NCBI GenBank assembly: GCA_019637105.1
Contig: JAHBWF010000079.1
Span: 1 to 35,743 of the forward strand
DNA from: Labilithrix sp.
GTDB taxonomy: Bacteria > Myxococcota_A > Polyangia > Polyangiales > Polyangiaceae
DNA: 35,743 nucleotides
Direction of reading: 5' to 3'
Under the pieces are notes generated by a model. The model made no database searches. It had not been told where the DNA came from and worked only from the letters and a program-made list of their open reading frames with translations. This document shows positions 12,461-32,103 of this stretch, piece after piece. Within the stretch, counting starts at the first letter, position 1, and each line of letters begins with the position of its first letter. A program made the translations under genes and the position numbers.

Positions 12461-12466
12461 TAGGAT
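12461..12466 (+). promoter_or_regulatory. -10 box TAGGAT, 6 nt before kinase start
   Basis: TAGGAT ends 6 nt before the GTG at 12473, so the transcript would begin at or next to the start codon. No -35 consensus is seen. The GGAG overlapping this box could instead be read as a distant ribosome site. Confidence 0.45.
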
Positions 12467-12472
12467 GGCGCC

Positions 12473-13339
12473 GTGATCGGCTCTCGGGAGTTCAAGGGGC
12501 GGTCCGGCCAGATCGTGGCCGGTCGCTACGAGCTGCTGGAGATGATCGGCAGCGGCCTGCAAAGCGTCGTCTACAAGGCGCACGACCGCGTCGAGAACGA
12601 CTACGTCGCGCTGAAGGTCTCCGAGTGGAGCGATCCCGACGCGAGCGAGCGGATGTTCCGCGAGGCGTTCGTGATGTGTCAGCTCCAGAACACGGCGGCG
12701 GTCCGTGTCCTCCACCAGTGCGAGACCGACGACGGCGCGACCGCGCTGGTGATGGAGCTCCTCCACGGCGCCGACCTCGGTTCGATCCTCCACCTGCGCG
12801 AGGGCCGCGGGGAGAAGGCCTCGCGCTCGTGGTTGACGGCGCTCCTCGAGCCGATCGTCTTCACGCTCGACGCGGCTCACAAGAACGGCATCGTGCATCG
12901 CGATCTCAAGGCAGAGAACGTCTTCGTGATCGATCCGCGCGCGGGCGGCGGCGTGCGGCTCCTCGACTTCGGCTTCGCGAAGCTGACGCGCAGCCCCAAG
13001 ATCACGTCACCGGAGGCCTTCGCCGGGTCGCCCGGCTACATCGCTCCGGAGGTGTGGCGTCGCGGGGCCTGGCGCGCCGACGCGCGCGCCGACGTCTACG
13101 CCTTCGGCGTGCTCGCCTTCCGCATCCTCGCCGGGCGCATGCCCTTCGAGGGCAGCCCGATCGAGCTCGCGCGCAAGGCGACCACGGAGCCGCGCCCGAG
13201 CCTCCACGCCCTCCGACCCGACCTGCCGGCGGACCTCGACGCCTGGGTCGGCCAGGTGCTCGCCGTCGAGGTCGACGAGCGCTTCGCCAACATCAACGCG
13301 GCCTGGCGCGCGCTCCAGGGCTGCCTCGAGGGGGACTGA
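12473..13339 (+). CDS. Soluble Hanks-type serine/threonine protein kinase
   Basis: This is a 288-residue protein; GTG at 12473. All kinase motifs are present: glycine loop IGSGLQSVVY (25-34), Lys48 in VALK, catalytic loop HRDLKAEN (142-149, Asp144), DFG (165-167), APE (191-193) and ADVYAFG. It should phosphorylate Ser/Thr on protein partners. It is only a kinase domain, with no TM, PASTA, TPR or other sensor region, so activation must come from a partner. Myxobacteria encode many such kinases. It follows the cold-shock/SUKH-like gene by 152 bp and has its own -10 box. Its target is unknown. Confidence 0.93.
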   Translation: MIGSREFKGRSGQIVAGRYELLEMIGSGLQSVVYKAHDRVENDYVALKVSEWSDPDASERMFREAFVMCQLQNTAAVRVLHQCETDDGATALVMELLHGADLGSILHLREGRGEKASRSWLTALLEPIVFTLDAAHKNGIVHRDLKAENVFVIDPRAGGGVRLLDFGFAKLTRSPKITSPEAFAGSPGYIAPEVWRRGAWRADARADVYAFGVLAFRILAGRMPFEGSPIELARKATTEPRPSLHALRPDLPADLDAWVGQVLAVEVDERFANINAAWRALQGCLEGD

Positions 13340-13504
13340 CGGCGTCGATCTCGAGGCGGCCTCGCCGAGCGCCGCCCCGGCGAAGGCGGCGCCCTCACGC
13401 GCGCTCGCGTCGAAGAGCTGCTCGACGCAGGCAACTCGCCTCGGCGCCGGGTGACGAGGCGCGCCGCGTTCGAGGAGCTCGCGAGGCCGGGCGCCGCCGC
13501 CCGA

Positions 13505-14158
13505 TCAGTCGCTCCACACCTGCGCCGCCCACGCGCCCTTGCCGCCGCCGACGGCGACGAGCAGCGAGACCTCGTCGGCGATCGTGAAGCAGACGGCGCC
13601 GCCTTCGGGCGCGGCGGGGCCGGGCGACTCGGCGACGACGTCGCCGGCGGAGTCGCGGAGCACCGCGACGATGTCCGTCACCGCCTCGTCGCCGGCGAAG
13701 TAGACGCGGTAGCACCGGTTCGCCTCCGCGCGGAACGTGCTCGCCTGGTGCGGCTCCCGGTCGGCCTGCTGGCCGCGGAGGACCGCGCCGACGGGCTTCA
13801 TCTTCGACGTCGCCGCGCACGCCTCGCCGAGCTTCTTCACGAGCTCGGCCGGATCCTTCGCGCGCGCCTTCGACGCCCCGCCGCACGAGGCGAGCGCCGC
13901 GTCGCTCCGGAGCTTCGCCTTCTTCGACCCGGCGACGCCCGGCGGAGGCATCGCCGCCATCGGCGGGAGGCCCGTCGGCGGCGGGCTCGTCGCGAGCTCC
14001 ACCGCGGCGCCGCCCTCGATCCCCGCGTCGGCGACGGGGCCGCTGGCCGGTGTCTTCGCGCCGCCGCCGCCGCACGCGAGCGTCACCGCGGTCGCGACGA
14101 CGCTCACGAGCGCGGAGGCCCCGATCCTCGACGACGACCCGACGCGCGAATGGTCCAT
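13505..14158 (-). CDS. Lipoprotein of unknown function
   Basis: This is a 217-residue protein; ATG at 14158. A hydrophobic leader ends in the lipobox LAC, followed by GGGGAKTP. A Pro/Ala/Met-rich stretch (about 60-85) precedes a domain with cysteines in LASCGGA, GEACAAT, NRCYRVYF and AVCFTIAD. The alternating hydrophobic strands (CYRVYFAGDEAV, VSLLVAVGGG) suggest a beta-sandwich. No family recognised. It is divergent from the Sua5 gene, starts about 86 bp apart. Confidence 0.8.
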   Translation of the reverse strand: MDHSRVGSSSRIGASALVSVVATAVTLACGGGGAKTPASGPVADAGIEGGAAVELATSPPPTGLPPMAAMPPPGVAGSKKAKLRSDAALASCGGASKARAKDPAELVKKLGEACAATSKMKPVGAVLRGQQADREPHQASTFRAEANRCYRVYFAGDEAVTDIVAVLRDSAGDVVAESPGPAAPEGGAVCFTIADEVSLLVAVGGGKGAWAAQVWSD

Positions 14159-14229
14159 GGAGCTCGGCAAGGTAACCCGGGATCGCGGCCTTGGGGATCC
14201 TCTCGTGCCGCGAGCGCCGGAGAGCGCGC

Positions 14230-14235
14230 TATGGT
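14230..14235 (+). promoter_or_regulatory. -10 box TATGGT, 8 nt before Sua5 start
   Basis: TATGGT is followed by 8 nt and the GTG at 14244. There is no Shine-Dalgarno. Same box and spacing as upstream of the PAP2 gene on the other strand (32103-32098). Confidence 0.5.
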
Positions 14236-14243
14236 CTCACGCC

Positions 14244-15257
14244 GTGCCGCGCGTCGTCCCCGTCGATCCTGCCGAGCCCGATCCCGCTGCGATCGCCGAC
14301 GCCGCGGGGGTAATGCGGCGAGGCGGCCTCGTCGCGTTCCCGACCGAGACGGTCTACGGCCTCGGCGCGCGCGGGCTCCGCGCGGAGGAGGTGCGGAAGA
14401 TCTTCGCCGCCAAGGGCCGTCCGCCCGGCCACCCCGTGATCCTCCACGTCGACGGCGAGGCGATGGCGCGTGAGCTCGCGGCCGAGTGGAGCTCGAGCGC
14501 GTCGCGCCTCGTCGGCGCGCTCTGGCCGGGGCCGCTCACGCTCGTCGTCCCGCGGGCTCCGGCGGTGCCGCCCGAGGTGAGCGGGGGCCTGGACACGGTC
14601 GGGATCCGCGCGCCGGACCACCCGGTGGCGCTCGCGCTGATCCGCGCCGTCGGCGAGCCGCTCGCGGCGCCCAGCGCCAACGCGCACACGCACGTGTCGC
14701 CGACGACCGCCGAGCACGTCGTCCGCTCGCTCGGCGACCGCGTCGATCTCGTGCTCGACGCGGGGCCGACCGCCTTCGGGATCGAGTCGACCGTGCTCTC
14801 GTTCGGGCACGATCCGCCGCGCGTGCTCCGGCCCGGCGCGGTGTCGCTCGAGCGGCTCCGCGCGCTCGAGCCGCGCGTCGTCCACGAGCGCGTGAGCGTC
14901 GAGGGGGACGAGGCGCGCGCGGCGCCGGGGATGGCCGCGAAGCACTACGCGCCGCGCACGAGCGTGACGCTCGCCGCCCGAGGACAGGAGGGCGTGGCGC
15001 GGGCGATCGCCCGGAGCGGCCTCGCCCGCGCGCGCGTCGCGGCGATCGTCGTCACCGACGGCGCGCGCGACGCTGCGGCCGGGTGCGCGCCGGTCGTCGT
15101 CCTCCCGGGCTCGCCCGAGGGATACGCGCGCGGGCTCTTCGCGGCGCTCCACGAGGTCGACGCGGCCGGCGTGGACCTCGTCGTCGTCGAAGAGGTCCCC
15201 GCGGAGCCGGCGTGGTGGGCGGTCGCCGATCGCCTCGCGCGCGCGGCGCGCCGGTAG
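14244..15257 (+). CDS. tsaC: Threonylcarbamoyl-AMP synthase, Sua5 type
   Basis: This is a 337-residue protein; GTG at 14244. The YrdC/Sua5 catalytic domain has LVAFPTETVYGLGARG, then KGRPPGHPVILHV, WPGPLTLVV, VGIRAPDHPVALALI and APSAN. These bind ATP, bicarbonate and threonine to make threonylcarbamoyl-AMP for the t6A37 modification of ANN-decoding tRNAs. The C-terminal Sua5 domain is present, starting near APGMAAKHYAPRT, so this is the long (TsaC2/Sua5) form. It is a cytoplasmic housekeeping gene with its own putative leaderless promoter. Confidence 0.95.
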   Translation: MPRVVPVDPAEPDPAAIADAAGVMRRGGLVAFPTETVYGLGARGLRAEEVRKIFAAKGRPPGHPVILHVDGEAMARELAAEWSSSASRLVGALWPGPLTLVVPRAPAVPPEVSGGLDTVGIRAPDHPVALALIRAVGEPLAAPSANAHTHVSPTTAEHVVRSLGDRVDLVLDAGPTAFGIESTVLSFGHDPPRVLRPGAVSLERLRALEPRVVHERVSVEGDEARAAPGMAAKHYAPRTSVTLAARGQEGVARAIARSGLARARVAAIVVTDGARDAAAGCAPVVVLPGSPEGYARGLFAALHEVDAAGVDLVVVEEVPAEPAWWAVADRLARAARR

Positions 15258-15267
15258 CGGCCGATCC

Positions 15268-15296
15268 TTTACAACTCAAGCAATCGCGCCTAAGCC
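15268..15296 (+). promoter_or_regulatory. Possible promoter of the RidA-MarR catabolic operon
   Basis: TTTACA (15268-15273) is followed after 17 nt by TAAGCC (15291-15296), a poor -10. TACTCT lies slightly further on. This is the most AT-rich patch before the operon. A 7-bp inverted repeat (GCCGCCG ... CGGCGGC) surrounds the start of the leader. Confidence 0.3.
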
Positions 15297-15345
15297 TCTT
15301 GCCGCCGCTACTCTCGGCTGACGGCTCGGCGGCAGGGAGCCTTCC

Positions 15346-15744
15346 ATGGGATATCAGGTCATCACGCCGGCGCATTTTCCGAAGCCCCGCGGGTACTCGA
15401 ACGGCATCGTCTCGCAGGGGCGCGTGCTCCACATCGCCGGGCAGATCGCCTGGGACAAGGACGCGCGGATCGTCAGCCCCGACTTCGCCACGCAGTTCCT
15501 CCAGGCGCTCGACAACGTCATCGCCGTCGTCCGCGAGGCGGGCGGCGCGACCGAGCACCTCGTGAAGCTCACCGCGTTCGTCACCGACCTCGACGCGTAC
15601 CGCGCGGCGACGCCGGCCATCGGAGAGGGCTGGCGCGCGCGCCTCGGCAAGTACTATCCCGCGATGAGCCTCGTGAAGGTGGCGGGGCTGCTCGAGCCCG
15701 GCGCCCTCGTCGAGATCGAGGGCGTCGCCTCGCTCCCCGGCTGA
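15346..15744 (+). CDS. RidA/YjgF family protein lacking the catalytic arginine
   Basis: This is a 132-residue protein, full length for the family; ATG at 15346, GGGAG upstream. The fold markers are clear (VSQGRVLHIAGQIAWDKDA, LDNVIAVVREAGG, VKLTAFVTDLDAY, LVEIEGVASLPG). Canonical RidA uses an Arg in a Pro-x-Arg-Ser context; here that region reads YYPAMSLVKVAGL, so Met stands where Arg should be. Members without the Arg generally lack enamine/imine deaminase activity, so the role here may be ligand binding or a different hydrolysis. It opens the catabolic operon and is in the same frame as the following MarR gene. Confidence 0.92.
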   Translation: MGYQVITPAHFPKPRGYSNGIVSQGRVLHIAGQIAWDKDARIVSPDFATQFLQALDNVIAVVREAGGATEHLVKLTAFVTDLDAYRAATPAIGEGWRARLGKYYPAMSLVKVAGLLEPGALVEIEGVASLPG

Positions 15745-15825
15745 GGCCTCAGCCGCGAGGGAGCGAAGACCCGGAGCCGCGGAGGCAGGGAGCGGGGCGG
15801 CGACTCCGTCAGCCTCTGGTTCCGC

Positions 15826-16281
15826 TTGCTCGGCTGCCACGCGATGATGCTCGCGGAGCTCCGCCGCGAGCTCGAGGACCGCACGACGCTCGCGCGCTTC
15901 GACCTCCTCGCGAGCCTCGAGCGCGACGACGGCCAGACGCTCGCGGGGCTGAGCCGCGCGCTGCTCGTGACCGCGGGCAACGTCACCGGCCTCGTCGACC
16001 GCGCGGAGCGCGACGGCGTGGTCGAGCGGCGCTCGGAGCCCTCCGATCGCCGCGTCGTCCGCGTGTGGCTGACCCGCGCGGGGCGCGCGCTCATCCGCGA
16101 GCTCTTGCCGCTCCACGCGAGCCAGGTGCGGGAGCTCATCGGCGCGCTCCCGGCGCAGGACCGACGCGAGCTGCGCCGTCTCCTCGGCGCGCTGCGCGAG
16201 CATCTGCTGGCGCAGGCGCGCGCGCGCGAGGTAGGAGCGAGGGGCGCGTCGCGCGACGCCGACCCGACCGAACGAAGCTGA
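15826..16281 (+). CDS. MarR-family transcriptional regulator (start codon unclear)
   Basis: The winged-helix core is clear: LARFDLLASLERD, LAGLSRALLVTAGNVTGLVDR (recognition helix), ERRSEPSDRRVVRVWLT. MarR proteins bind palindromes as dimers and usually repress until a phenolic or acyl-CoA ligand binds. From TTG at 15826 the product is 151 residues; ATGs at 15844 and 15847 would be shorter. The open frame continues upstream into SVSLWFRLLGCH, which resembles the usual N-terminal helix of this subgroup. Yet no ATG, GTG or TTG lies between the RidA stop at 15742-15744 (same frame) and 15826. The gene probably controls this operon. Confidence 0.82.
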   Translation: MLGCHAMMLAELRRELEDRTTLARFDLLASLERDDGQTLAGLSRALLVTAGNVTGLVDRAERDGVVERRSEPSDRRVVRVWLTRAGRALIRELLPLHASQVRELIGALPAQDRRELRRLLGALREHLLAQARAREVGARGASRDADPTERS

Positions 16282-16294
16282 AGAGGACGACCCG

Positions 16295-17167
16295 ATGACG
16301 ATCCAGCCGAAGACCTTCGAGTACGAGCTCTCCCCCAGCGGCGTCGCGACGATCACGCTCGCGCGGCCCGAGCGCCTCAACTCGCTCACGTTCGAGGTCT
16401 ACGAGGAGCTCCGCGACACCTTCGCCGCCCTCGACCACGAGGACGACGTCCGCGCCGTCGTGATCACGGGCAAGGGGCGCGCGTTCTGCTCGGGCGGCGA
16501 CGTCGAGAGCATCATCGGCGAGCTCTTCGCGCGCGACATGAAGGGCCTCGTCGCGTTCACGCGCGTCACCGGCGCGCTCATCCGCAACATCCGCGCGCTC
16601 CGCCGGCCCGTCGTCGCGGCCGTCAACGGCACCGCGGTCGGCGCAGGCGCCGTCATCGCGCTCGCGTGCGACTTCCGGATCGCGAGCTCGGCGGCGAAGA
16701 TCGGCTTCATCTTCCCGAAGGTCGGCCTGTGCGGCGCCGACATGGGCGCGACGTACCTCCTCCCGCGGGTCGTCGGCCTCGGGCGCGCGACCGAGCTCCT
16801 GTTCCTCGGCGACGTCATCGGCGCGGAGGAGGCCGAGCGCATCGGGCTCTTCGGCCGCGTCGTCGCCCCGGAGGCGTGCGTGGAGACGGCGCGCGCCCTG
16901 GCGGAGCGCCTCGCGTACGGCCCCGCCTTCGCGCACGCGATGACGAAGCAGATGCTCGAGAGCGAGCACGCGATGACGCTCGACGTGGCGATCGAGGCCG
17001 AGGCGCAGGTCCAGGCGATCTGCATGCAGCACCCCGATTTCCGCGCCGCCTACGACGCGTGGGTCGCCAAGCGCCCCCTCGTCTTCGAGGGCGCGAAGGC
17101 GCCGTTCGACGCCGGCGGGAGGCGCGGCACCGCCGACGGTCCGGCGGTGAAGGGCGGAGGGCAGTGA
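16295..17167 (+). CDS. Enoyl-CoA hydratase/isomerase (crotonase) family protein
   Basis: This is a 290-residue protein; ATG at 16295 with GAGGA upstream, 13 nt after MarR. The crotonase fold is clear: GVATITLARPERLNSL, oxyanion-hole strands GKGRAFCSGGD and AVNGTAVGAGAVIALACDFR, then GADMGATYLLPRVVG. It should hydrate an unsaturated acyl-CoA, or isomerise or hydrolyse one; which cannot be told. The LCGADMGAT segment replaces the PGAGGT of classic crotonases, as in CoA-dependent aromatic pathways. The last 25 residues are a Gly/Lys-rich tail. It is followed at once by the acyl-CoA dehydrogenase. Confidence 0.93.
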   Translation: MTIQPKTFEYELSPSGVATITLARPERLNSLTFEVYEELRDTFAALDHEDDVRAVVITGKGRAFCSGGDVESIIGELFARDMKGLVAFTRVTGALIRNIRALRRPVVAAVNGTAVGAGAVIALACDFRIASSAAKIGFIFPKVGLCGADMGATYLLPRVVGLGRATELLFLGDVIGAEEAERIGLFGRVVAPEACVETARALAERLAYGPAFAHAMTKQMLESEHAMTLDVAIEAEAQVQAICMQHPDFRAAYDAWVAKRPLVFEGAKAPFDAGGRRGTADGPAVKGGGQ

Positions 17168-17169
17168 CC

Positions 17170-18372
17170 ATGTCCGAGCCGGCGCCCGCGTCGCGCAAGG
17201 TCCGCCCGTCGTGGGCGGCGCTCCCGATGTTCTTCGACGCGTCGCACCGCGCGCTCGGCGAGGAGTGCGACGAGATCACCGACGGCGACGTCGCGCTGCA
17301 CGATCCGCCGCGCGTGATCCCGCGGCTGGGCGCGCTCGGGCTCCTCCAGCTGCTCGTCCCCGCGAATCAGGGCGGCGGCGCGTGGGGAGCGGGCGGCGCG
17401 GCCGTCGACGTCCGCGCGCTGTGCGTGGCGCGCGAGGCGCTCGCGTACTCGTCGGGCCTCGCCGACTCGATCTTCGCGGTCCAGGGCCTGGGCTCGCACC
17501 CGATCCTCCTCGCCGGCGAGGGGGCGAGGCGCGCGTCGGTGCTCGCGGAGGTCGTGCGCGGCGAGCGCGTCTCCGCCTTCGCGCTCACGGAGCCGGAGGC
17601 GGGCAGCGACGTCGCCTCGATGCGGACGACGGCGCGGCGCGAAGGGGACGCGTGGATCCTCGACGGCGAGAAGGTGTTCATCTCGAACGTCGGCATCGCG
17701 CACCACTACGTGGTGTTCGCGAACGCCGATCCGTCCGCCGGCAAGAAGGGCATCAGCGCCTTCCTGGTCGAGGCGAGCTCCGAGGGGCTCCTCACCGAGC
17801 CGATCGCGATGAGCGTGGAGCACCCGCTCGGCCGGCTCGCGATGAAGAGCTGCCGCGTCCCCGCGTCGGCGCTCCTCGGCGAGGTCGGCATGGGCCTCCG
17901 CCTCGCGCTCGGGACGCTCGACGTCTTCCGGACGTCGGTGGGCGCCGCGGCGGTGGGGATGGCCCGGCGCGCGGTGGACGAGTCGATCGCGCGCGTCACG
18001 CGGCGCGTCCAGTTCGGCAAGCCGCTCTCCGACTTCCAGCTCACGCAGGCGGCGCTCGCCGACATGGCGACGGAGCTCGACGCCGCGCGCCTGCTCGTCT
18101 GCCGCGCGGCCTGGGAGAAGGACCAGCCGCGCGACGACTCCGCGAGAGGGCGCGGCGACGGCGTCTCCGTCGCGATGGCGAAGATGTACGCGACCGAGGC
18201 CGCCCAGCGCATCATCGATCGCGGCGTCCAGCTCTTCGGCGGTCTCGGCGTGACCGAGGGCAACGTGCTCGATCGGCTCTACCGCGAGATCCGGCCGCTT
18301 CGGATCTACGAAGGGACGACGGAGATCCAGAAGCTCATCATCGGAGGAGCGCTCACCGCGCGGCCCGGCTGA
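17170..18372 (+). CDS. Acyl-CoA dehydrogenase
   Basis: This is a 400-residue protein; ATG at 17170 with GGAGGG 8 nt upstream. A GTG at 17164 overlapping the hydratase stop is possible but sits too near the ribosome site. Family motifs are present: AFALTEPEAGSD (FAD/substrate binding), WILDGEKVFISN, the RRVQFGKPLSDFQLTQ helix and LYREIRPLRIYEGTTEIQ with the catalytic Glu of the YEGT motif. It oxidises an acyl-CoA to the 2,3-enoyl-CoA and passes electrons to ETF. The preceding hydratase is the natural next enzyme. Confidence 0.95.
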   Translation: MSEPAPASRKVRPSWAALPMFFDASHRALGEECDEITDGDVALHDPPRVIPRLGALGLLQLLVPANQGGGAWGAGGAAVDVRALCVAREALAYSSGLADSIFAVQGLGSHPILLAGEGARRASVLAEVVRGERVSAFALTEPEAGSDVASMRTTARREGDAWILDGEKVFISNVGIAHHYVVFANADPSAGKKGISAFLVEASSEGLLTEPIAMSVEHPLGRLAMKSCRVPASALLGEVGMGLRLALGTLDVFRTSVGAAAVGMARRAVDESIARVTRRVQFGKPLSDFQLTQAALADMATELDAARLLVCRAAWEKDQPRDDSARGRGDGVSVAMAKMYATEAAQRIIDRGVQLFGGLGVTEGNVLDRLYREIRPLRIYEGTTEIQKLIIGGALTARPG

Positions 18373-18391
18373 AGGCCGCCGGGGGATACCC

Positions 18392-19828: not shown

Positions 19829-19948
19829 GCTGCGGCGCGCGGGCGCGCGGCGCCTCGACCAGGAGCGCCGGAGCGCGCACCTCGCGACCCCGGGACGCTC
19901 CCCGGAGCCCGAGCCGCTCCCGCTTCTGCCCTCGCTGCTCGACGAGCC

Positions 19949-19966
19949 CATCTCGGTGACGAGATG
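19949..19966. promoter_or_regulatory. Perfect palindrome CATCTCG-GTGA-CGAGATG at the carrier promoter
   Basis: Arms of 7 bp (19949-19955 and 19960-19966) flank GTGA. It lies immediately upstream of the TCTAGT -10 (19970-19975), over the expected -35 to -10 spacer. Size and position fit an operator for a dimeric regulator such as a MarR or TetR protein. No identical site was seen upstream of the catabolic operon. Confidence 0.5.
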
Positions 19967-19969
19967 TGC

Positions 19970-19975
19970 TCTAGT
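19970..19975 (+). promoter_or_regulatory. -10-like TCTAGT, 9 nt before the AEC carrier start
   Basis: TCTAGT matches the consensus at four of six bases and ends 9 nt before GTG 19985. No ribosome site is present. Confidence 0.35.
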
Positions 19976-19984
19976 CGTCCCGGC

Positions 19985-20890: not shown

Positions 20891-20909
20891 CGGAGCTCGA
20901 GAGCCCGCC

Positions 20910-21131
20910 TCACGCGGCGGTGGAGCGCGCGCTGCGCCGCGCGAGGAGCTTCGGATCGCGCGACTGACCGACCTCCATCCGGCAGAGGAAGCAGCGGAAC
21001 GAGATGTGGTGCGGGCGCGGCGTCATGCCGAGCATGCTCAGCATGATCCATCCCCACGTCGTGTACTCGGGCTCCTCTTGGATCGCGGCGTCCCCGAGGC
21101 GGTGACCGCAGTGGCAGGTTCGATCGCGCAT
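20910..21131 (-). CDS. Small zinc-ribbon-like protein (73 residues)
   Basis: ATG at 21131 to TGA at 20910. TCHCGHRLG near the start and SFRCFLCRMEVG at 43-54 provide a CxC and a CxxC pair that could hold one zinc ion. The middle is hydrophobic (TTWGWIMLSMLGMTP) and the tail is basic. It lies 119 bp downstream of the sigma-54 activator and 19 bp from the convergent carrier gene. The in-frame stop, regular cysteines and sensible composition favour a real gene. Function unknown. Confidence 0.65.
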   Translation of the reverse strand: MRDRTCHCGHRLGDAAIQEEPEYTTWGWIMLSMLGMTPRPHHISFRCFLCRMEVGQSRDPKLLARRSARSTAA

Positions 21132-21202
21132 GCCCGTCACGGTGCACCGGGGGTGCCAGGCTCGAACCCGCGTAAATCCGCGGGGACGTCGCGGCGTCTC
21201 CC

Positions 21203-21236
21203 CGCCGAAGACCTGGCAGGTGCCGAATCTTCGGCG
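21203..21236 (-). terminator. Hairpin downstream of the sigma-54 activator
   Basis: Arms CGCCGAAGA (21203-21211) and TCTTCGGCG (21228-21236) form a 9-bp perfect stem 15 nt after the activator stop on the minus strand. The loop contains a second small palindrome (ACCTGCCAGGT on the minus strand). There is no T-run, so termination is not certain; it could also stabilise the 3' end. Confidence 0.45.
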
Positions 21237-21250
21237 CACGGGGCCCGCGA

Positions 21251-22771
<1,521 letters not shown>

Positions 22772-22778
22772 CCCCACG

Positions 22779-22784
22779 ACTGTA
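22779..22784 (-). promoter_or_regulatory. -10 box TACAGT, 7 nt before the sigma-54 activator
   Basis: TACAGT (22784-22779) is followed by 7 nt and the ATG at 22771, with no ribosome site. The alternative GTG at 22777 lies only 1 nt away, so the box supports the ATG. Confidence 0.5.
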
Positions 22785-22829
22785 CCGCGCGTCGCGACGA
22801 CCTGCCTCGCGAGCGCGAGCGCGGAGGCG

Positions 22830-23648: not shown

Positions 23649-23654
23649 GCCCGA

Positions 23655-23660
23655 ACTATG
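23655..23660 (-). promoter_or_regulatory. -10-like CATAGT, 6 nt before PhnD-like start
   Basis: CATAGT (23660-23655) has 6 nt before the GTG at 23648 and no ribosome site. It is a four-of-six match. Confidence 0.4.
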
Positions 23661-23933
23661 CCGGAAATTCGACGCGCGCGTCGGCGCGGACGACGTCGCT
23701 CCGCGCGGACGACGTCCCGGCGAAGGGCGAGGCGCGCTCGTTTCGACGTCACGAGATCATTCTAGCATCATGAAATGCCTGCGCTTGTCGGGTGGGGATG
23801 ACGCGATCCACCGAACGGGACAGGGCGCGTCGTCGGGAGGCCCCGAGCGGCGGTGTCCGTGTGCGCAGGCGTCGGCGAATGAGGTGGGTCGCGCTCGATC
23901 CATGCACCGGTGCGCTTCGTGCAGGCGGCTCGT

Positions 23934-23939
23934 TACGAT
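23934..23939 (+). promoter_or_regulatory. -10 box TACGAT, 7 nt before FGE-like lipoprotein
   Basis: TACGAT ends 7 nt before the ATG at 23947. An earlier in-frame ATG at 23938 overlaps this box, so 23947 is favoured. Confidence 0.5.
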
Positions 23940-23946
23940 GATCGGC

Positions 23947-25344: not shown

Positions 25345-25436
25345 TCGACCGCGCGGCGCTGCTCCCCCGGGGACCGGCAGAGATCGCGCTCCGCCCCTTG
25401 TCTCGGAGGCCGGCTCGGGGGTAAGCGAGAGCGGCC

Positions 25437-27065
25437 GTGATCACCTTCCCCGAAGACCTGAGCCTCGCGCGCTATTTCCTCTTCGATCGCCTCGCCGAGG
25501 GGATGGGCGCGCGGGTGGCCGTCCGCTTCGGAGACCTGCGCTACACGTACGACGCCGTCGCCGACAAGACGCGCCGGATGACGGGGCTGCTCGCGGCGGC
25601 GGGCGTCCGTCGCGGCGAGCGCGTCCTCATCGTCCTCCCCGACGTGCCGCCGTTCGCCTGGACGTTCTTCGGCGTGCTCGCCCGCGGCGCCGTCGTCGCG
25701 ATGGGCAACCCGCTCGCGCCGCCGGAGACGCTCGAGTACCTCGTCGGCTACACGCGCGCGACGGCGATCGTCACCGTGCCCGCGGTCGCGGAGCTCCTCC
25801 GCGCGCGGGTCGAAGCGGTGTCGAGCGAGGTGCAGGCGATGTTCGTCGTGCCGGACGCGCCCACGGGCAGCGATCCCGAGGCGCGCGTCGCCGGGACGGC
25901 GTTCTCCGGCAAGGTGAAGGAGCTCGCGCCGCTGCTCGCCGCCGCCGAGCCGTGGTCGCCGGTCGAGGTGCACCGCGACGAGCCGGCGATCTGGCTCTTC
26001 ACGAGCGGCTCGACCGGCGAGCCGAAGGCGAACGTGCACACCCACCGCGATTTCGCGTTCAACACCGAGGTCTACGCGAAGCAGACCGTCGGCTACCGGA
26101 GGGACGACGTCACCGTCAGCGTCCCGCGCCTGTTCTTCGGCTACGCGACGGGCACGAACCTGATGTTCCCCTTCGCGGTCGGCGCCGCCGCGGGGCTCTT
26201 CAGCGAGCGGCCGACGCCCGAGAGCCTCGCGAACGCCATCGCGATGTACCGCCCCACGGTCGTGACGAACGTGCCGACGATGCTCGGCAAGCTCCTCGAG
26301 CACGACGAGGCGCTCGTGAAGGAGGGCAAGCCCGGCCTCGACCTCTCGAGCGTCCGCTTCTCGCTGTCGGCCGGCGAGGCGCTCCCCGAGCCGCTCCTCC
26401 GTCGCTGGCTGGACCGCTTCGCGAGCGACGTCTACGACGGGATCGGGTCCGCGGAGATGTTCCACATCTACGCGTCGAACCGGCCCGGCGACGTCAAGCC
26501 CGGCTCGCTCGGCAAGGTGGTCTCCGGCTACGAGCTCCGGATCCTCCCCGAGGACGCCGAGGGCGCCGGCGCGACCCCCTGCGCGCCGGGGGAGATCGGC
26601 GTCCTCTGGGTAAAGGGAGACAGCGTCAGCCAGGGCTACTGGCTCGATCGCGACAAGAGCTGGCGCACCTTCCACGGCCACTGGTGCCGCACCGGGGACC
26701 TCTTCCACGTCGACGCCGAGGGGTACCTCTACTTCGCGGGCCGCGCGGACGATCTCCTCAAGGTCGGCGGCCAGTGGGTCGCGCCGCTGGAGGTCGAGGA
26801 GTGCCTGCTCGAGCACGCGGCCGTCGCCGCCGCCGCCGTCATCGGCGTCGAGGAGGACGGCCTCGTGAAGACGAAGGCGTTCGTCGTCGTACGCGCCGGG
26901 CACGCCGCCACGCCCGCGCTCGCCGCCGCGCTGCAGGAGCACGTGAAGTCCACGCTCGCGCGCTACAAGTACCCGCGCGTGATCGAGTTCGTCGACGATC
27001 TCCCGAAGAACGATCGCGGCAAGGTCGACAAGAAGGCGCTGCGCGCGCGGGGCGGCCCCTCCTGA
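25437..27065 (+). CDS. Benzoate-CoA ligase family enzyme (aromatic acid-CoA ligase)
   Basis: This is a 542-residue protein; GTG at 25437. ANL-superfamily motifs are intact: WLFTSGSTGEPKAN (P-loop, about 182-195), VSVPRLFFGYATGTNLMFPF, the DGIGSAEMFHIYASNRPGDV block that is a hallmark of benzoate-CoA ligases, TGDLF, DLLKVGGQWV and a final PKNDRGKVDKKALR with the catalytic Lys. It activates an aromatic carboxylate to its CoA thioester with ATP. Exact substrate (benzoate, 2-aminobenzoate, salicylate) cannot be read. Its stop overlaps the next gene (TGATG). With the CoA-linked operon at 15-20 kb it suggests the first step of the pathway. Confidence 0.93.
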   Translation: MITFPEDLSLARYFLFDRLAEGMGARVAVRFGDLRYTYDAVADKTRRMTGLLAAAGVRRGERVLIVLPDVPPFAWTFFGVLARGAVVAMGNPLAPPETLEYLVGYTRATAIVTVPAVAELLRARVEAVSSEVQAMFVVPDAPTGSDPEARVAGTAFSGKVKELAPLLAAAEPWSPVEVHRDEPAIWLFTSGSTGEPKANVHTHRDFAFNTEVYAKQTVGYRRDDVTVSVPRLFFGYATGTNLMFPFAVGAAAGLFSERPTPESLANAIAMYRPTVVTNVPTMLGKLLEHDEALVKEGKPGLDLSSVRFSLSAGEALPEPLLRRWLDRFASDVYDGIGSAEMFHIYASNRPGDVKPGSLGKVVSGYELRILPEDAEGAGATPCAPGEIGVLWVKGDSVSQGYWLDRDKSWRTFHGHWCRTGDLFHVDAEGYLYFAGRADDLLKVGGQWVAPLEVEECLLEHAAVAAAAVIGVEEDGLVKTKAFVVVRAGHAATPALAAALQEHVKSTLARYKYPRVIEFVDDLPKNDRGKVDKKALRARGGPS

Positions 27066-27823
27066 TGCCGCGTCACCTCGCCGATCTCACGTACGAGGAG
27101 GTCGCGGAGCTCGTCTCCGCGGGCTCCGCCGTCGCGATCGTCCCCGTCGGGAGCGTGGAGCCCCACGGGCCGCACCTGCCGCTCCGCACGGACACGACCA
27201 TCAGCGAGACGTGCGCCGCGCGCGCGGCCGCGCGGCTCGAGGCGGACGGCGTGGCCGCGGTGATCGCCCCGAGCGTCCCGTACGGGGTGACCGAGTACGC
27301 CCGCGGGTTCGCGGGCGCGATCGGCGTGCCCGCCGCGGCGCTGACCGCGATGCTCCGCGCCGTCGCGGAGCGCCTCCTCGAGTGCGGCTTCGTCCACGTC
27401 TGCTTCGTGAACAACCACCTCGAGCCTGCCCACGACGCCGCCGTCCGCGCGGCGATCGACGGCCTGCCCGCGGGCGCGGCGTCGGTCGCGTGCCCGCTCA
27501 CGCGCCGCTGGGGGCGCACGCTGTCGGACGAGTTCAAGCGCGGCGACTGCCACGCGGGGCGCTACGAGACCTCGCTGGTCCTGGCCGCCGGCGAGGGCGT
27601 GCGCGGCGCGCTCGGCGAGCTCCCGACGATCGGGCTCAGCCTGAGCGACGCGATCAAGGCGGGGAAGGCGACCTTCGCCGAGATCGGGATGGACCGCGCG
27701 TACACCGGCGCCCCGTCGGAGGCGACGCGCGAGGAGGGCGACTCGCTCTACGAGCGCCTCGCCACGATGGTCGTGACCGAGATCGTCGAGGGGCTCGCCA
27801 AGCGCGCGCCGTCCTCCGCGTAG
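27065..27823 (+). CDS. Creatininase-family amidohydrolase
   Basis: This is a 252-residue protein; ATG at 27065 overlaps the ligase stop, so the two are translated together. Metal-ligand motifs are present: PVGSVEPHGPHLPLRTD near residue 24, VNNHLEPAHDAAV, and DCHAGRYETSL. The family uses zinc or manganese to open cyclic amides or hydrolyse formamides. It lacks a signal peptide and should be cytoplasmic. Joined to an aromatic CoA ligase it could act on a nitrogen-containing ring intermediate or on a by-product; a specific reaction is not established. Confidence 0.92.
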   Translation: MPRHLADLTYEEVAELVSAGSAVAIVPVGSVEPHGPHLPLRTDTTISETCAARAAARLEADGVAAVIAPSVPYGVTEYARGFAGAIGVPAAALTAMLRAVAERLLECGFVHVCFVNNHLEPAHDAAVRAAIDGLPAGAASVACPLTRRWGRTLSDEFKRGDCHAGRYETSLVLAAGEGVRGALGELPTIGLSLSDAIKAGKATFAEIGMDRAYTGAPSEATREEGDSLYERLATMVVTEIVEGLAKRAPSSA

Positions 27824-27826
27824 GTC

Positions 27827-28684
27827 GTGCGGAGGCGCCTCGCGGTCGCGATCGTCGCCGGCGCCGCCGCCGTCGTGGCGGCGTGGCGCCTCGAGCAGGC
27901 GCGCCTCGCGCCGGGACGCGCGGCCGCCTGCGGCGAGGCCGGAGGCGCGACGCTGGACCACGACGGCGTTCGCGTGCTCGTCGGGAGCGAGCTCGCGGGC
28001 GACGGCGCGCTCCGGCCGGGCCGCGTCGCGCGCTGCGACGAGCGCGCCGACGCGACCGCGACGTTCGTGGCGGTCCGCGCGGCCGTGCAGGGGGCGCGCT
28101 GGTCGGAGCAGCCTCCCGTCGTCGTCCATTTCGCCCCTCGCGGCGGCGCCGCCGGCGCGCGCACCCACCGCGCGCGGGCCGAGCTCATCCTGCCCGCGGG
28201 CGAGCCGCTCGACGCGACCGTCCTCGCGCACGAGCTCGCCCACGTCGTCGTCCTCGCGCGTCGCGCGGAGGCGCCGCGGAGCGACGTCGGCCGCCGGGTC
28301 GTCGCCGTCATCGACGAGGGGGTCGCGGACTTCGCGGCCGCCGTCGCGACCGGCAGGCGCGTCGTCGGCGATCCGTCGCGCGGCCCGACGCGCGATCTCG
28401 AGCGACCGCCGCGCGTGTCGATCGAGGGCTGGGCGAACCTCGCGTCCACGTCGACCCCGTTCGATCCGCACCTGCTCGGCTGGGACCTCGCCGCCGCCCT
28501 CTTCGCGCGCGCCGGCGTGGACCGTCAGCTCCGCGACGACCTCGCGGCGGCGGCCGCCGCCGCGCGCGGCGAGGACGTGGGGCCGATCCTCGCGTCGCTC
28601 GTCGCCGCGTGCGCGGAGCGCAGCCGAGAGCTCTTGCGGAGCGCCCTCGCGGAGTGGGTACCGAGCGGGCTCGCGCTGGAGTAG
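27827..28684 (+). CDS. Membrane-anchored HExxH metalloprotease-like protein
   Basis: This is a 285-residue protein; GTG at 27827, 3 nt after the creatininase stop. A basic start and hydrophobic segment (5-20) act as signal or anchor. Zinc motif HELAH at 135-139 and, 25 residues on, DEGVADF (Glu164), the third ligand pattern of gluzincins of the peptidase-MA type. Other regions are Arg/Ala-rich with two cysteine pairs. It is probably a periplasmic zinc peptidase; its substrate is unknown, and it may not belong functionally to the catabolic genes. Its final TAG overlaps the -10 box of the next gene. Confidence 0.82.
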   Translation: MRRRLAVAIVAGAAAVVAAWRLEQARLAPGRAAACGEAGGATLDHDGVRVLVGSELAGDGALRPGRVARCDERADATATFVAVRAAVQGARWSEQPPVVVHFAPRGGAAGARTHRARAELILPAGEPLDATVLAHELAHVVVLARRAEAPRSDVGRRVVAVIDEGVADFAAAVATGRRVVGDPSRGPTRDLERPPRVSIEGWANLASTSTPFDPHLLGWDLAAALFARAGVDRQLRDDLAAAAAAARGEDVGPILASLVAACAERSRELLRSALAEWVPSGLALE

Positions 28685-28687
28685 AGT
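28682..28687 (+). promoter_or_regulatory. -10 box TAGAGT, 6 nt before small lipoprotein
   Basis: TAGAGT overlaps the preceding stop codon TAG (28682-28684) and ends 6 nt before GTG 28694. No ribosome site. Confidence 0.5.
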
Positions 28688-28693
28688 GAGCGA

Positions 28694-29047
28694 GTGCGCG
28701 GCGTCCTCTTGACCTGTGCCCTCGCGTGCGCCGGGTGCACGGTTCATCACTCGCGCACGGCGATCGGCGGTGACGTCGCCCACGTACCCCCTCCCGCGGC
28801 GCGCTTCGTGTCGGAGGACGACAGCGGGCTCCTCCTGTTCGGCGCCCTCTCGCTCAGCGAGCCGGATCACTACGCCGTCTTGCTCGAGCGCATCCGTCGC
28901 AAGCACCGCTGCGGGCGGATCGCGCAAGCGCAGCTCGATTTCTACACCGACCACTGGCTGCTCGTCGGCTTCCCCGTCGCGCGCGTGACGGTCTTGTGCG
29001 AGCCGAGCGAGCCACCGCCGAACGCGGCCCCGACCGAACCACGTTGA
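28694..29047 (+). CDS. Small lipoprotein of unknown function
   Basis: This is a 117-residue protein; GTG at 28694. A short leader has a lipobox with Cys15 (CAGC, preceded by LA). The mature part contains FVSEDDSGLLLFGALSLSEPDHYAVLLERIRRKHRC and a further Cys near the C-terminus; the tail is Pro-rich. No family recognised. Two cysteines in the mature domain could pair. It ends 10 bp from the convergent PLC-like gene. Confidence 0.8.
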   Translation: MRGVLLTCALACAGCTVHHSRTAIGGDVAHVPPPAARFVSEDDSGLLLFGALSLSEPDHYAVLLERIRRKHRCGRIAQAQLDFYTDHWLLVGFPVARVTVLCEPSEPPPNAAPTEPR

Positions 29048-29057
29048 CGTGCAGCGC

Positions 29058-29951
29058 TCAGGGACAGAGCGCGACGTGCGCGGCGAAGAAGCCCTCGAGG
29101 GCGCGGTCGAGGTCGTCGTCGTCGCTCTCGAGGTCGCGGACCAGCGCGCCCACGAGCGCGAGGTAGTCGCGCGTCGCGAGGCGCGCTCGGCGCGCCTCGT
29201 CGCCGAGGCAGCCCTCGATCGCCTCGAGGGTCCGAGGATCGTTGCAGTCGCGCCCGGAGCGGTAGATCGAGTCGAGCGACGTGATGTGCCCGATCGTGTC
29301 TCCGCTCCTCCCTCCGTGGTAGAGGTGGCCGGGCAGCTCGAAGCCCGGCGCGCGCGTGATGTACGCCTTGACCTGCTCGATGCACCAGGGGCGCTCGGCG
29401 CCGTCCGGCGCGCGGACGGTGTGGGCCCGGCTGAACGAGTCCTGGATCGTGTGCAGGGCCTCGCCGATCCGCGTGAGCGCGACGACGCGGTCCTCGGTCC
29501 ACGCGGCGAGGGCGAGGCGGGTCCGCGACCGGATGACCTCGCGGGCGAGGCGCGCGGCGTCGGCGCTGTCGTTGTCGGGCCCGAGGAGGAAGTGGAGCGG
29601 CTGGTTCTCCGGTCGGTCCTGGAGCGAGGTCGCGGCGTTGGCGTACGCGACCACGCTGTGGGCCATGTGAACGAGCAGCTCCTTCGGCCAGTCGACGCGC
29701 CGGTTCCCTTCGACGATCTCGTCGACCTCGCGGCTGGGGAAGCGCTCGGCGGCGGGCAGGTCCCGATTGCCGAGCACCGTGATCCACTCGTGCCCGCGGA
29801 ACGACGAGCGGTTCGTCAGCGCGCAGTCGCCCTGCGAGAAGAACCCGTCGCTGTCGTCGTCCGGCACGCACAGGACGAGGGGCGTACACGTGGTCGGCGC
29901 CAGCATGACCGCCGCCACCAGGAGCCACTCGACGAGCCGCGGGTGCCGCAT
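29058..29951 (-). CDS. Zinc-dependent phospholipase C / S1-P1 nuclease-like exported protein
   Basis: This is a 297-residue protein; ATG at 29951. A signal peptide (residues 1-22, ending around TTC) precedes an all-helical domain. His-rich motifs fit the zinc-PLC/S1-P1 superfamily: VHMAHSVVAYANAAT, GEALHTIQDSFSRAHT (HxxxD, with another His 5 residues on) and DTIGHITSLDSIYR. These coordinate a zinc cluster in phosphodiesterases. CIEQVKAYITRAPG and RDCNDPRTLEAIEGC could contain a disulfide. Lacks some family N-terminal features (the first residue of mature PLC is usually Trp), so catalysis is only likely. Its 5' end overlaps the divergent gene by 9 nt. Confidence 0.85.
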   Translation of the reverse strand: MRHPRLVEWLLVAAVMLAPTTCTPLVLCVPDDDSDGFFSQGDCALTNRSSFRGHEWITVLGNRDLPAAERFPSREVDEIVEGNRRVDWPKELLVHMAHSVVAYANAATSLQDRPENQPLHFLLGPDNDSADAARLAREVIRSRTRLALAAWTEDRVVALTRIGEALHTIQDSFSRAHTVRAPDGAERPWCIEQVKAYITRAPGFELPGHLYHGGRSGDTIGHITSLDSIYRSGRDCNDPRTLEAIEGCLGDEARRARLATRDYLALVGALVRDLESDDDDLDRALEGFFAAHVALCP

Positions 29952-30584
29952 CGCCGACGAATACTAGCGGGGAAAGCCCTCGCCGTCGCCGCGGCGGTCG
30001 CCGCGCTCGGCGCCGCGCCCTCGGCCCGCGCCGCGGAGGACGAGGCGCCGACCTTCGAGGACGCCGTCGCGCGGCGTCCCGACTGGACCGCGGGCATCGT
30101 CCTCGAGCGGAGCATCCGGAGCGTCGTCGGCGAGTCGCTGGTCGACGATCAGCTCTTCGGGCTCTCGGCGACGCGCTTCGTCGCCGGGCGCTACGGGATC
30201 CACGCGCGCCTCCTCGTGAGCCCGAACGTCGAGCGGTTCGTCGACACGCGCGGGGTCGCCGCGCTCGGCTTCCGGCTCCGGACGCGCGTGCTCGGCGTCG
30301 ACACGTTCCTCGGCAGCGGCGCTCACGTCGAGGCGCGCCTCCGGACCCACTACTGGCTGGGCTACGTCGCGCCGCTCGAGCTCGGCGTCACGGCGTGGAA
30401 GAAGGGGAGCTTCCGGGTCGAGGTGTTCGTCGGCATGCGGGGGATCCTGGCCGGCGATCTCGTGAACTCGTACCTCATCGATCCCAACGGCGTCGACAAC
30501 GCCCAGGCCGCGGACGCGCTCGCCGCGCGGCGGGCGCGCCCGTGGGAGAGCTACCTGAGCATCGTCCTCGGGAGGGCCATGTGA
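29943..30584 (+). CDS. Exported protein, possible outer-membrane barrel
   Basis: GTG at 29943 gives 213 residues starting MPHRRRILAGKALAV, a normal signal peptide cleaved after SARA. No ATG, GTG or TTG lies nearer that would keep the signal peptide, so this start overlaps the divergent PLC-like start (29951). The mature part alternates strands with aromatic/Gly-rich ends (RYGIHARLLVSPN, FRLRTRVLGVDTFLG, HYWLGYVAPLELGV), as in small outer-membrane barrels. The stop overlaps the next start (ATGTGA), so the two genes are coupled. No family is recognised. Confidence 0.8.
   Translation: MPHRRRILAGKALAVAAAVAALGAAPSARAAEDEAPTFEDAVARRPDWTAGIVLERSIRSVVGESLVDDQLFGLSATRFVAGRYGIHARLLVSPNVERFVDTRGVAALGFRLRTRVLGVDTFLGSGAHVEARLRTHYWLGYVAPLELGVTAWKKGSFRVEVFVGMRGILAGDLVNSYLIDPNGVDNAQAADALAARRARPWESYLSIVLGRAM
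29961..29966 (-). promoter_or_regulatory. -10 box TAGTAT, 9 nt before PLC-like start
   Basis: TAGTAT (29966-29961) lies inside the coding region of the divergent gene and ends 9 nt before the ATG at 29951. No ribosome site. Confidence 0.5.
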
Positions 30585-31246
30585 GGCGCGTCCTGAGGGC
30601 CGCCGCCTCGGCGGTCGTCCTCGCCGCCTCGCCGGCCCTCGCGGGCGAGGGCGACACCGGGCCGGATCCCCGCTCGGGGACGGGCGCGGCGACCACGTCG
30701 CACGTGAAGGACATCGGCGTGCACACGCCTCGCGGCCGCCGGCTCTACCGCGACGAGGAGCCCCTCGAGCGCATCCTCGACAGCCGCCGGCGGATCTTCG
30801 TCATCGAGGCCGTGGCCGGCTCCGGATCGGAGGGCAACCTCGGGCTCGTGCTCGGCTGGATGCCGAGGGAGATCAAGGGCATCGAGTTCTTCGCGGGGGT
30901 CGGGCTCGACGTCAGTCCGGCCGTCCACGTGTCCGGCGCGACGCGCTTCCTCTTCAACTTCCGCGGCGTGCGCCCGTACGTCGGCGTCGGCTACTTCTAC
31001 AAGGGCGCCTTCGCGATCGAGACGTACTCCCACAACGTCTTCCTCGAGCTCGGCCACAGCTGGAAGCTCGGGCCGACCAACCACCTCACGGTGGGCGCGG
31101 GCGTGGCGCGGCTGCTCCACACGGGCGTCGACGAGGACTCGCCGCTCCGCTCGCCCAACGTCGATCCCGCGTCGCTCGAGGCGCAGACCAAGCTGGTCCC
31201 GCCGTATCTCCCGCTGTTCGCGGCTCGATTCAGCCGCGCCTTCTGA
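30581..31246 (+). CDS. Exported protein, possible outer-membrane barrel, paralogue-like partner
   Basis: This is a 221-residue protein; GTG at 30581 overlaps the preceding stop (GTGA). Signal peptide MRRVLRAAASAVVLAASPAL with cleavage near ALAG. The C-terminal half alternates strands: LGLVLGWMPREIKGIEFFAG, VHVSGATRFLFNFRGVRPYVGVG, HLTVGAGVARLLHT. It ends in ARFSRAF, a terminal Phe typical of beta-barrels. It forms a two-gene unit with the upstream exported protein. Function is unknown. Confidence 0.82.
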   Translation: MRRVLRAAASAVVLAASPALAGEGDTGPDPRSGTGAATTSHVKDIGVHTPRGRRLYRDEEPLERILDSRRRIFVIEAVAGSGSEGNLGLVLGWMPREIKGIEFFAGVGLDVSPAVHVSGATRFLFNFRGVRPYVGVGYFYKGAFAIETYSHNVFLELGHSWKLGPTNHLTVGAGVARLLHTGVDEDSPLRSPNVDPASLEAQTKLVPPYLPLFAARFSRAF

Positions 31247-31277
31247 CGCGCCTCGGCCGCCGGTCGGCTCGGCGCGC

Positions 31278-32090
31278 TCAGAAGCTTCCGGACAGCGTGA
31301 GCCCGCTCCCCGACGAGGCGACGCGCGCGCCGGTTCGCTCGTGGAGCGCGGGGAAGAAGACCCCGGACGCGACGCCGACCACGGCGCCCGCCGCGACGTC
31401 CGAGGGGAAGTGATCGCCGGCGAAGATGCGCGCGGCGCCGACGAACGAAGCGCCGAGCACGCCGACGCCGAGCGCGATCCACGACGCGTACGAGCGGTCG
31501 AGGCGCCGGAGCGTGCCGAAGGTCGCCACCGCCGCGGCCGCGGCTCCCGCGGTGTGACCGCTCGTGAACGACAGCGACGCGTTCCCGCTCGTCCGCTCCT
31601 CGACGGGGGCGGCGTCTCCGTAGGCGAGCGGCCTCGGGCGCCGCGCGCCCATCATCGCGACGATCGCGAGCGTGTTCGCGAAGAGCACCGACTCGCCGAC
31701 GACGATCGCGTCGACCGCGGCGTTCCGCGGCGACTCCGCGACGAAGAGCGTCGCGCCGGCGCCGACCAGCACGGCGGCGATGCCGACGTCGGAGGCCGTC
31801 CTCCAGCCGGGCTCCCATCGGCCCGCCGCCCAGCGATCGAAGGCGGGGACGTCCGCGCGGTCGCAGACCGGCGCGCAGTGCGGCGGCGCGAGCGATCCTC
31901 GGAGCAGCCAGGAGCTCGAGACGACGCCGGCGACGGCGACGGCGGGCAGATCGTACGCGAGGTTCACGCGGTACGCGGGGCCCGCGGGCGGCGGCTCGCT
32001 CGGCGGGTCGGCGCGCGCCTCGCGGGCCGGCAAGAGGAGCGACGTCGCGATCGCGGCGGCGGTGGACCAGAGGCTCCCGAGCGAGCGCAC
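31278..32090 (-). CDS. PAP2-family phosphatase, membrane bound
   Basis: The GTG at 32090 gives 270 residues and sits 7 nt after a TATGGT; an ATG at 32102 overlaps that box and is less likely. A signal-like leader (RSLGSLWSTAAAIATSLLLP) is followed by several TM segments. PAP2 active-site motifs are present: RRPRPLAY (KxxxxxxRP-like, Lys replaced), SFTSGHTAG (PSGH-like) and ARIFAGDHFPSDVAAG (SRxxxxxHxxxD-like). Enzymes of this class dephosphorylate lipid phosphates such as undecaprenyl diphosphate or phosphatidate. The weak first motif means activity is not certain. Shares the strand with the DoxX gene. Confidence 0.88.
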   Translation of the reverse strand: MRSLGSLWSTAAAIATSLLLPAREARADPPSEPPPAGPAYRVNLAYDLPAVAVAGVVSSSWLLRGSLAPPHCAPVCDRADVPAFDRWAAGRWEPGWRTASDVGIAAVLVGAGATLFVAESPRNAAVDAIVVGESVLFANTLAIVAMMGARRPRPLAYGDAAPVEERTSGNASLSFTSGHTAGAAAAAVATFGTLRRLDRSYASWIALGVGVLGASFVGAARIFAGDHFPSDVAAGAVVGVASGVFFPALHERTGARVASSGSGLTLSGSF

Positions 32091-32097
32091 GACGCCG

Positions 32098-32103
32098 ACC
32101 ATA
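32098..32103 (-). promoter_or_regulatory. -10 box TATGGT, 7 nt before PAP2 gene
   Basis: TATGGT (32103-32098) with 7 nt before GTG 32090. Same box and nearly the same spacing as at the Sua5 gene. Confidence 0.5.

Follow-up and report, generated by a model that had tools for sequence, protein, structure and literature searches.

Introduction

Leaderless mRNAs, which are translated from a start codon at or near their 5′ end, are well known in the actinobacteria and in Deinococcus. The present study concerns a series of TANNNT-like hexamers, candidate −10 promoter elements, which lie immediately before start codons in a 35,743-nucleotide stretch of DNA from Labilithrix sp. (contig JAHBWF010000079.1; the whole stretch is referred to here as the window, and genes are named by the position of their start codon). 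The window has a GC content of ~70–76% and belongs to a metagenome-assembled genome (MAG) of 8,454,228 bases in 334 contigs, 91.5% complete, of the genus Labilithrix (Myxococcota, Polyangiales), with the same-genus genomes G001–G012 as its closest relatives. An original prediction had read nine such boxes between positions 12,461 and 32,103 as promoters of leaderless mRNAs. The myxobacteria were still counted among the delta-Proteobacteria in 2011, the year of the survey to which this locus compares most closely.

In that survey, TA-led leaderless genes were defined by the motif TANNNT, and the figures given for the delta-Proteobacteria are 8 of 33 genomes, with 15.8% of genes on average (Zheng et al., 2011; PMC3160421). 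The genes described here resemble them in having TANNNT approximately 12 bp upstream of the start, a high GC content and no use of a Shine-Dalgarno (SD) site, the last being seen here as a depletion. The mean given in that paper for the delta-Proteobacteria is also close to the excess of ~13% found here over all genes. Its main text contains neither of the words ‘Sorangium’ and ‘Myxococcus’. The present case differs in that it comes from an uncultured Polyangiales MAG and adds conservation among orthologs and the trace of a −35 element.

Two other systems offer a comparison. In the Deinococcus-Thermus group, TANNNT likewise adjoins the ORF, in most cases with no classical −35 region (PMC12340547). 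In Mycobacterium and other actinobacteria, leaderless genes stand beside SD-led genes as they do here, and TANNNT occurs in the text of the paper describing them (PMC3898074). The evidence in those studies came from mutation of the ORF-adjacent −10 motif with a reporter in the former and from 5′ ends mapped by sequencing in the latter, whereas here it comes from sequence analysis. The organism also differs from the former group in being a Gram-negative myxobacterium, with ~18–21% of first genes involved, compared with about a third of the genes of D. radiodurans. More broadly, predicted leaderless transcription is cited for 21.6% of bacterial species in the StartLink paper (PMC9581028). A Cappable-seq data set is available for Myxococcus xanthus, in a paper whose main text does not contain the word leaderless (PMC8844925), and no open-licence paper treating leaderless mRNAs of myxobacteria was found, judged by title and the start of the abstract. 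With the mechanism known and the wider group predicted in 2011, the Polyangiales case and its conservation evidence constitute a modest addition, solid rather than surprising.

Enrichment of TANNNT before start codons

The analysis was based on a sample of 772,634 bases (9% of the genome), made up of the window and 40 stretches picked by contig number, in which 603 genes were called with a self-trained codon model. For each gene, every in-frame start codon whose score came within a margin of the top one was admitted, so that the choice of start was blind to the boxes. A gene was taken as the first of its transcription unit if its neighbour was divergent or if it was preceded by a gap of at least 50 nt (n = 389); because this was judged from the best called start, the assignment is wrong for a few genes, 28694 among them. 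Background was the mean of six 4-nt windows at 16–39 nt before the start, supplemented by five permuted motifs of the same composition counted at 6–9 nt. The motifs TNNNAT and TNNANT, present at 6–9 nt in 46 and 36 of the 603 genes, were dropped as controls because they share letters with TATAAT.

TANNNT was found 6–9 nt before an in-frame start, and thus centred near −12 as in the genes of Zheng et al. (2011), in 83 of the 389 first genes, where 12.0 would be expected and the permuted motifs gave 9, 13, 14, 15, and 19. By distance from 0 to 13 nt, the counts were 3, 3, 0, 1, 0, 1, 33, 21, 12, 19, 12, 4, 6, and 9. The profile is therefore nearly empty below 6 nt and rises abruptly there, with 33 matches at this distance after a single one at 5 nt. 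Such a sharp edge is what leaderless transcription predicts, since a box closer than 6 nt would put the start of the RNA inside the gene. The original prediction had proposed a genome-wide count by distance as a check, expecting a sharp peak at 6–9 nt, and the sharp rise at 6 nt, with a count at 6–9 nt above those of all permuted motifs, bears it out in the part of the genome sampled.

Over all genes, TANNNT occurred at 6–9 nt in 95 of 603 (15.3 expected) and in operon-internal genes in 7 of 169 (2.0 expected), so that the net share is ~18% among first genes and ~13% over the whole gene set. In a first sample of 286 genes, a longest-ORF rule with no scoring of starts at all gave 29 matches against ~2 expected. 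The reverse complement of the motif gave 3 or 1 matches in the same sample, depending on which of two start rules was used, against 19 or 29 for TANNNT itself. Within the window alone, 6 of the 31 called genes have TANNNT at 6–9 nt, compared to 0–1 in each of nine other 4-nt bins; this count omits the Sua5 gene at 14244, whose ORF was extended by the caller to 13737.

No genome-wide enrichment was seen for TCNNNT (46 vs. 43.5 expected), CANNNT (27 vs. 28.5) or AANNNT. Among the 306 first genes without TANNNT, some near-misses were raised, namely TANNNC (32 vs. 16.0), TANNNG (26 vs. 15.0) and GANNNT (66 vs. 44.7, s.d. 10.6), which suggests that the true share of boxed genes may be higher.

Shine-Dalgarno, −35 and start codon signals

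A strong SD site at any candidate start was found in 12 of the 83 boxed first genes, compared to 106 of the 306 unboxed ones (p = 2.6e-4) and 24 of 70 cases with a permuted box. SD sites in boxed genes are depleted, not absent. The claim that the boxed genes of the window have no ribosome site needs the same qualification, as in 12473 and 28694 a GGAG lies 12 nt before the start, directly upstream of the box. The corresponding claim that downstream genes are served by SD sites or overlaps was found to apply in part, a 4-base SD-like match being present in six of the nine close-following genes of the window.

In 30 of the 83 genes the box is preceded, at a distance of 23 nt, by a T (background 11%; p ~1e-9 before correction for 40 columns), at the position where a −35 hexamer would begin if the spacer were 17 nt. 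The original prediction was right in seeing no −35 consensus as far as TTGACA is concerned, but this phased T is present. When the boxes were examined for a housekeeping sigma factor signature, the letters of the −10 element fitted and the −35 element was limited to the phased T; a vestigial −35 may thus accompany the boxes. It should also be noted that TTG was rarer at the boxed starts (4/84) than among the remaining candidate starts of these genes (30/225, p = 0.04).

Loss of the anti-SD sequence was considered and rejected. In eight locus genomes, two complete Sorangium chromosomes among them, no match to the 16S-tail pattern was found. With an rRNA model, four of seven genomes searched, both Sorangium included, likewise gave no 16S, and the tails that can be read carry CCTCC; the missing tails consequently reflect a limit of data or search and not a loss of the anti-SD. 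The phylum retains its anti-SD: the exact tail with CCTCC was found in 18 of 57 genomes, the others giving no match, and it was also read directly in three genomes. No 16S was found in the assembly of the present genome. Missing 16S genes are common in MAGs.

The boxes of the window and their conservation

All nine boxes were present where they had been placed:

12461..12466, plus strand: predicted −10 box TAGGAT, 6 nt before the GTG of protein-kinase gene 12473–13339; kept with the same spacing in the sole ortholog found (G004)
14230..14235, plus strand: predicted −10 box TATGGT, 8 nt before the GTG of Sua5/YrdC gene 14244–15257 (Pfam Sua5 domains); best-supported site
22779..22784, minus strand: predicted −10 box TACAGT, spaced 7 nt from ATG 22771; the gene, 22771–21251, is of the GAF/sigma54-activator (NtrC-type) kind; kept in the sole ortholog found, with a spacing of 9 and the same ATG
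23655..23660, minus strand: CATAGT, a weak but plausible candidate, 6 nt from GTG 23648, the start of a gene for an ABC protein of the phosphonate-binding type; identical in the sole ortholog
23934..23939, plus strand: TACGAT, probably a chance match, 7 nt before ATG 23947; one of six orthologs has TANNNT at 6–9 nt
28682..28687, plus strand: predicted −10 box TAGAGT, 6 nt before GTG 28694 of a short gene that ends at 29047 and has no Pfam match; the box shares bases with the stop codon of the preceding gene and is kept in the sole ortholog with a spacing of 7
29961..29966, minus strand: predicted −10 box TAGTAT, 9 nt before ATG 29951 of a gene running to 29058 (no Pfam match)
32098..32103, minus strand: predicted −10 box TATGGT, 7 nt from GTG 32090; the gene encodes a PAP2 phosphatase and runs to 31278; box kept in the sole ortholog, with the same GTG
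19970..19975, plus strand: TCTAGT, unsupported, 9 nt before GTG 19985 of a membrane transport protein gene

Seven of these are exact TANNNT matches, with CATAGT and TCTAGT deviating from the motif. By spacing or orientation, eight of the nine genes are first in their unit, in line with what had been stated for most of them, the exception being 28694, which begins 9 nt after the preceding gene on the same strand. Automatic starts based on coding signal only agreed with four of the nine proposed starts in both runs (12473, 19985, 23648, and 29951). The other five were 4–38 codons off in the first run; in the second, Sua5 was lengthened by 169 codons and the rest were unchanged, with the boxed starts of 22771, 23947, 28694, and 32090 among the allowed candidates.

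For the comparison with relatives, ortholog rows with less than 45% identity, less than 40% coverage or a match beginning after residue 45 were excluded. Stretches shorter than 3 kb were also left out. The Sua5 set comprised 12 relatives, namely 11 of the 12 same-genus genomes (all but G001) and G021 of another genus; loci from named records belong to these genomes and add no independent cases. TANNNT was found 6–9 nt before the aligned start in all 11 same-genus orthologs, ten of which start with GTG and one with ATG, and not in G021. Eight of the orthologs share 59–69% protein identity, with TGG, CCG, TGC, CGA, GAG, TCC, AGC, and ACG as the middle bases of their boxes; T1, A2 and T6 are thus constant in the Sua5 orthologs while the middle varies. 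The permuted motifs occurred in 0–2 of the 12. Across the window, a box was found in 17 of 23 orthologs of boxed genes compared to 4 of 136 orthologs of unboxed genes, the 23 consisting of the 12 of Sua5, six of 23947 and five single close orthologs, and three of the four unboxed matches belonging to gene 14107. In pairs with G004, positions 1, 2, and 6 were kept in 21 of 21 cases, compared to 97 of 140 over the preceding 20 nt, a figure that is not leaned on because the ortholog box was located by its pattern and the conservation is partly built in.

On this evidence the Sua5 site is strongly supported as a promoter adjoining its start, and 12473, 22771, 28694, 29951, and 32090 are each supported by one close ortholog. 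In the G004 ortholog of 29951 the hexamer reads TACAAT at the same spacing, two middle bases having changed while T1, A2 and T6 are kept. The leaderless reading is the best one for the class of sites and fits three members less well: 23947, which is better explained by a sigma54-like element (see below); 19985, for which no ortholog was found in the relative stretches examined and whose motif class TCNNNT is unenriched; and 23648, with one ortholog and the unenriched class CANNNT. The boxes had also been said to decide several start codons, and this is upheld by one ortholog each for 22771 and 32090 and fails for 23947.

The frame of Sua5 is open upstream to a GTG at 13737 (13737–15257, plus strand), which led the caller to add 169 residues over the divergent region; this extension is likely an annotation trap. 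On the opposite strand, gene 14107 (minus strand) is divergent to Sua5 (13505–14229) and shows TANNNT 6–9 nt before an upstream in-frame start in three of six orthologs, so that in certain relatives leaderless transcription may apply to each gene of the pair. Genes 29951 (minus strand) and 29943 (plus strand) are also divergent and overlap by 9 nt as called (29943–29966); either the minus-strand box of 29951 lies inside plus-strand gene 29943 or the latter gene starts later.

Distribution among relatives

TANNNT at 6–9 nt was found in 45 of 243 first genes of the genus pool (14.3 expected; permuted motifs 8–23), in 27 of 143 in other genera of the family (8.3 expected; permuted 12–23) and in 37 of 225 in other families of the order without Sorangium (15.3 expected; permuted 13–32). 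For two strains of Sorangium cellulosum the count was 17 of 121 (5.3 expected; permuted 2–14), an uneven result since So ce26 alone gave no excess in its first sample (5/82). There was no excess in one genome of another class (14/105 vs. 16.8 expected; permuted 9–20) or in one 50-kb stretch of E. coli K-12 (4/25 vs. 8.7; permuted 4–11). As the permuted motifs come nearer with distance from the present genome, the claim weakens accordingly; the excess in the present genome is the cleanest partly because of the low background at 73% GC.

Interpretation of the boxes

The edge at 6 nt, the strand- and motif-specific excess, the SD depletion, the conservation among orthologs and the weak phased T at −35 make leaderless transcription the best reading for this class of sites. 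It is very probable that sigma70-type promoters whose −35 is reduced to a vestige give rise to leaderless mRNAs at about one fifth of the first genes in this genome. A housekeeping sigma70-type factor would recognize a −10 hexamer T-A-N-N-N-T ending 6–9 nt before the start codon, and RNA synthesis would begin at the first base of that codon, an A or G, or no more than a few bases away. Ribosomes would then initiate at the 5′-terminal AUG or GUG without an SD site, with the downstream genes of the units presumably relying on SD sites or translational coupling. Leaderless mRNAs are generally known for initiation by 70S ribosomes or initiation favored by IF2, and the same would be expected here.

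Several observations weigh against this reading. The gene calls and candidate starts were computed in this analysis and are not annotated ones. A TTGACA-like −35 (four of six letters, spacer 16–18) was found in 9 of the 83 boxed genes, hardly above the backgrounds of 5 in 150 for TANNNT in coding sequence and 15 in 116 for other upstream TANNNT. No SD site was found at the boxed start itself (0/83; permuted boxes 2/70), a result not counted as support as it is partly forced by the box occupying the SD place. Five of the six supported sites in the window depend on a single close ortholog (87–92% protein identity), in four of which the box is unchanged. Finally, Sua5 matches at E 1e-40 were found in 33 of 57 genomes of the order, the present one included, and the exact box, kept within the genus, was seen in none of 27 orthologs outside it, nor in that of G021; 29 were scored, of which both same-genus ones were boxed.

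Several of the 27 Sua5 genes from outside the genus have TA-type hexamers lacking the last T approximately 6–9 nt before the start. These hexamers (TATACC, TAGGAA, TAGGAC, and TAGACC) are located upstream of Sua5 in L171, L172, L181, L182, and L190.

A shade of the same explanation is that the boxes are ordinary −10 elements giving leaders of 1–6 nt rather than none, again with SD-free translation. The spread of the spacing over 6–9 nt, with some excess at 10–13 nt, would suit such short leaders, and the start site can be fixed from sequence alone no better than to ~3 nt; the largest count, however, falls at 6 nt, the shortest distance used, and TTG is rare at the boxed starts, which leaves short leaders as a possible but rather unlikely general rule. 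It is far less likely that the box is an RNA signal for translation, a non-SD ribosome site instead of a promoter. Its location in the SD place, which it replaces, is what such a signal would show, but the conserved T1, A2 and T6 with a free middle are those of a −10 hexamer, and the strict minimum of 6 nt, the phased T at −35 and the concentration of the excess in first genes also argue for a promoter. Chance AT-rich hexamers made to fit by the choice of start codon, as the boxes did guide that choice in the original prediction and as 19985 and 23947 look to be, are hardly credible and are refuted as a general explanation by the excess that persists with box-blind longest-ORF starts (29/286 vs. 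~2) and over the permuted motifs.

Sites 23947 and 33146

Two further elements were identified in the window:

23909..23923, plus strand: GG-N10-GCA, a sigma54-like −24/−12 element upstream of 23947, with a predicted leader of ~13 nt
33133..33138, plus strand: TCTCAT, a candidate variant −10 box absent from the original prediction, 7 nt from GTG 33146, the start of a gene for an acyltransferase (Pfam)

The consensus of sigma54 (RpoN) promoters is TGGCACG-N4-TTGCA. Like these promoters, the region upstream of 23947 has a conserved GG-N10-GC core: GG-N10-GCA is present in the window and in all five readable orthologs, the sixth having too little upstream sequence, compared to at most 4 of 10 orthologs for the 17 other window genes with at least four readable orthologs. 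TANNNT at 6–9 nt is found in only one of the six orthologs of 23947, and the adjoining gene 22771 (minus strand) encodes a regulator with Sigma54_activat, GAF and HTH_8 domains. The conserved element and the NtrC-type regulator next door suggest a sigma54 promoter at 23909–23923 with a leader of ~13 nt, perhaps activated by the product of 22771, with TACGAT as a chance match, and this is on balance the favored reading of the site. Against it, the likeness is confined to this one site, the window copy matches only 8 of the 12 consensus letters by eye (cut-off 9), the conserved stretch could be another operator, and the link between 22771 and 23947 is one of neighborhood alone. In some relatives the same sigma54-like element would leave a leader of ~5 nt (by eye).

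At 33146, TCT[CGT]AT was found by eye 6–7 nt before the start in all six orthologs, and CTTTACG lies upstream of the window copy at 33109–33115 (plus strand). The class T[CGT]TNAT is raised among the 306 first genes without TANNNT (6 vs. 1.8), and 33146 is regarded as a leaderless candidate without TANNNT. There may be more than one type of start-adjacent promoter: TANNNT, TCTNAT and perhaps the sigma54-like elements that would leave ~5-nt leaders in certain relatives of 23947.

Significance

Myxobacteria are predators and major makers of natural products, and their start codons are mostly predicted. If one fifth of first genes are indeed leaderless, gene starts could be corrected from the promoter, and expression constructs would by default be built without an added leader. 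The group would also lend itself, as a Gram-negative system, to studying how a single ribosome serves both leaderless and SD-led initiation.

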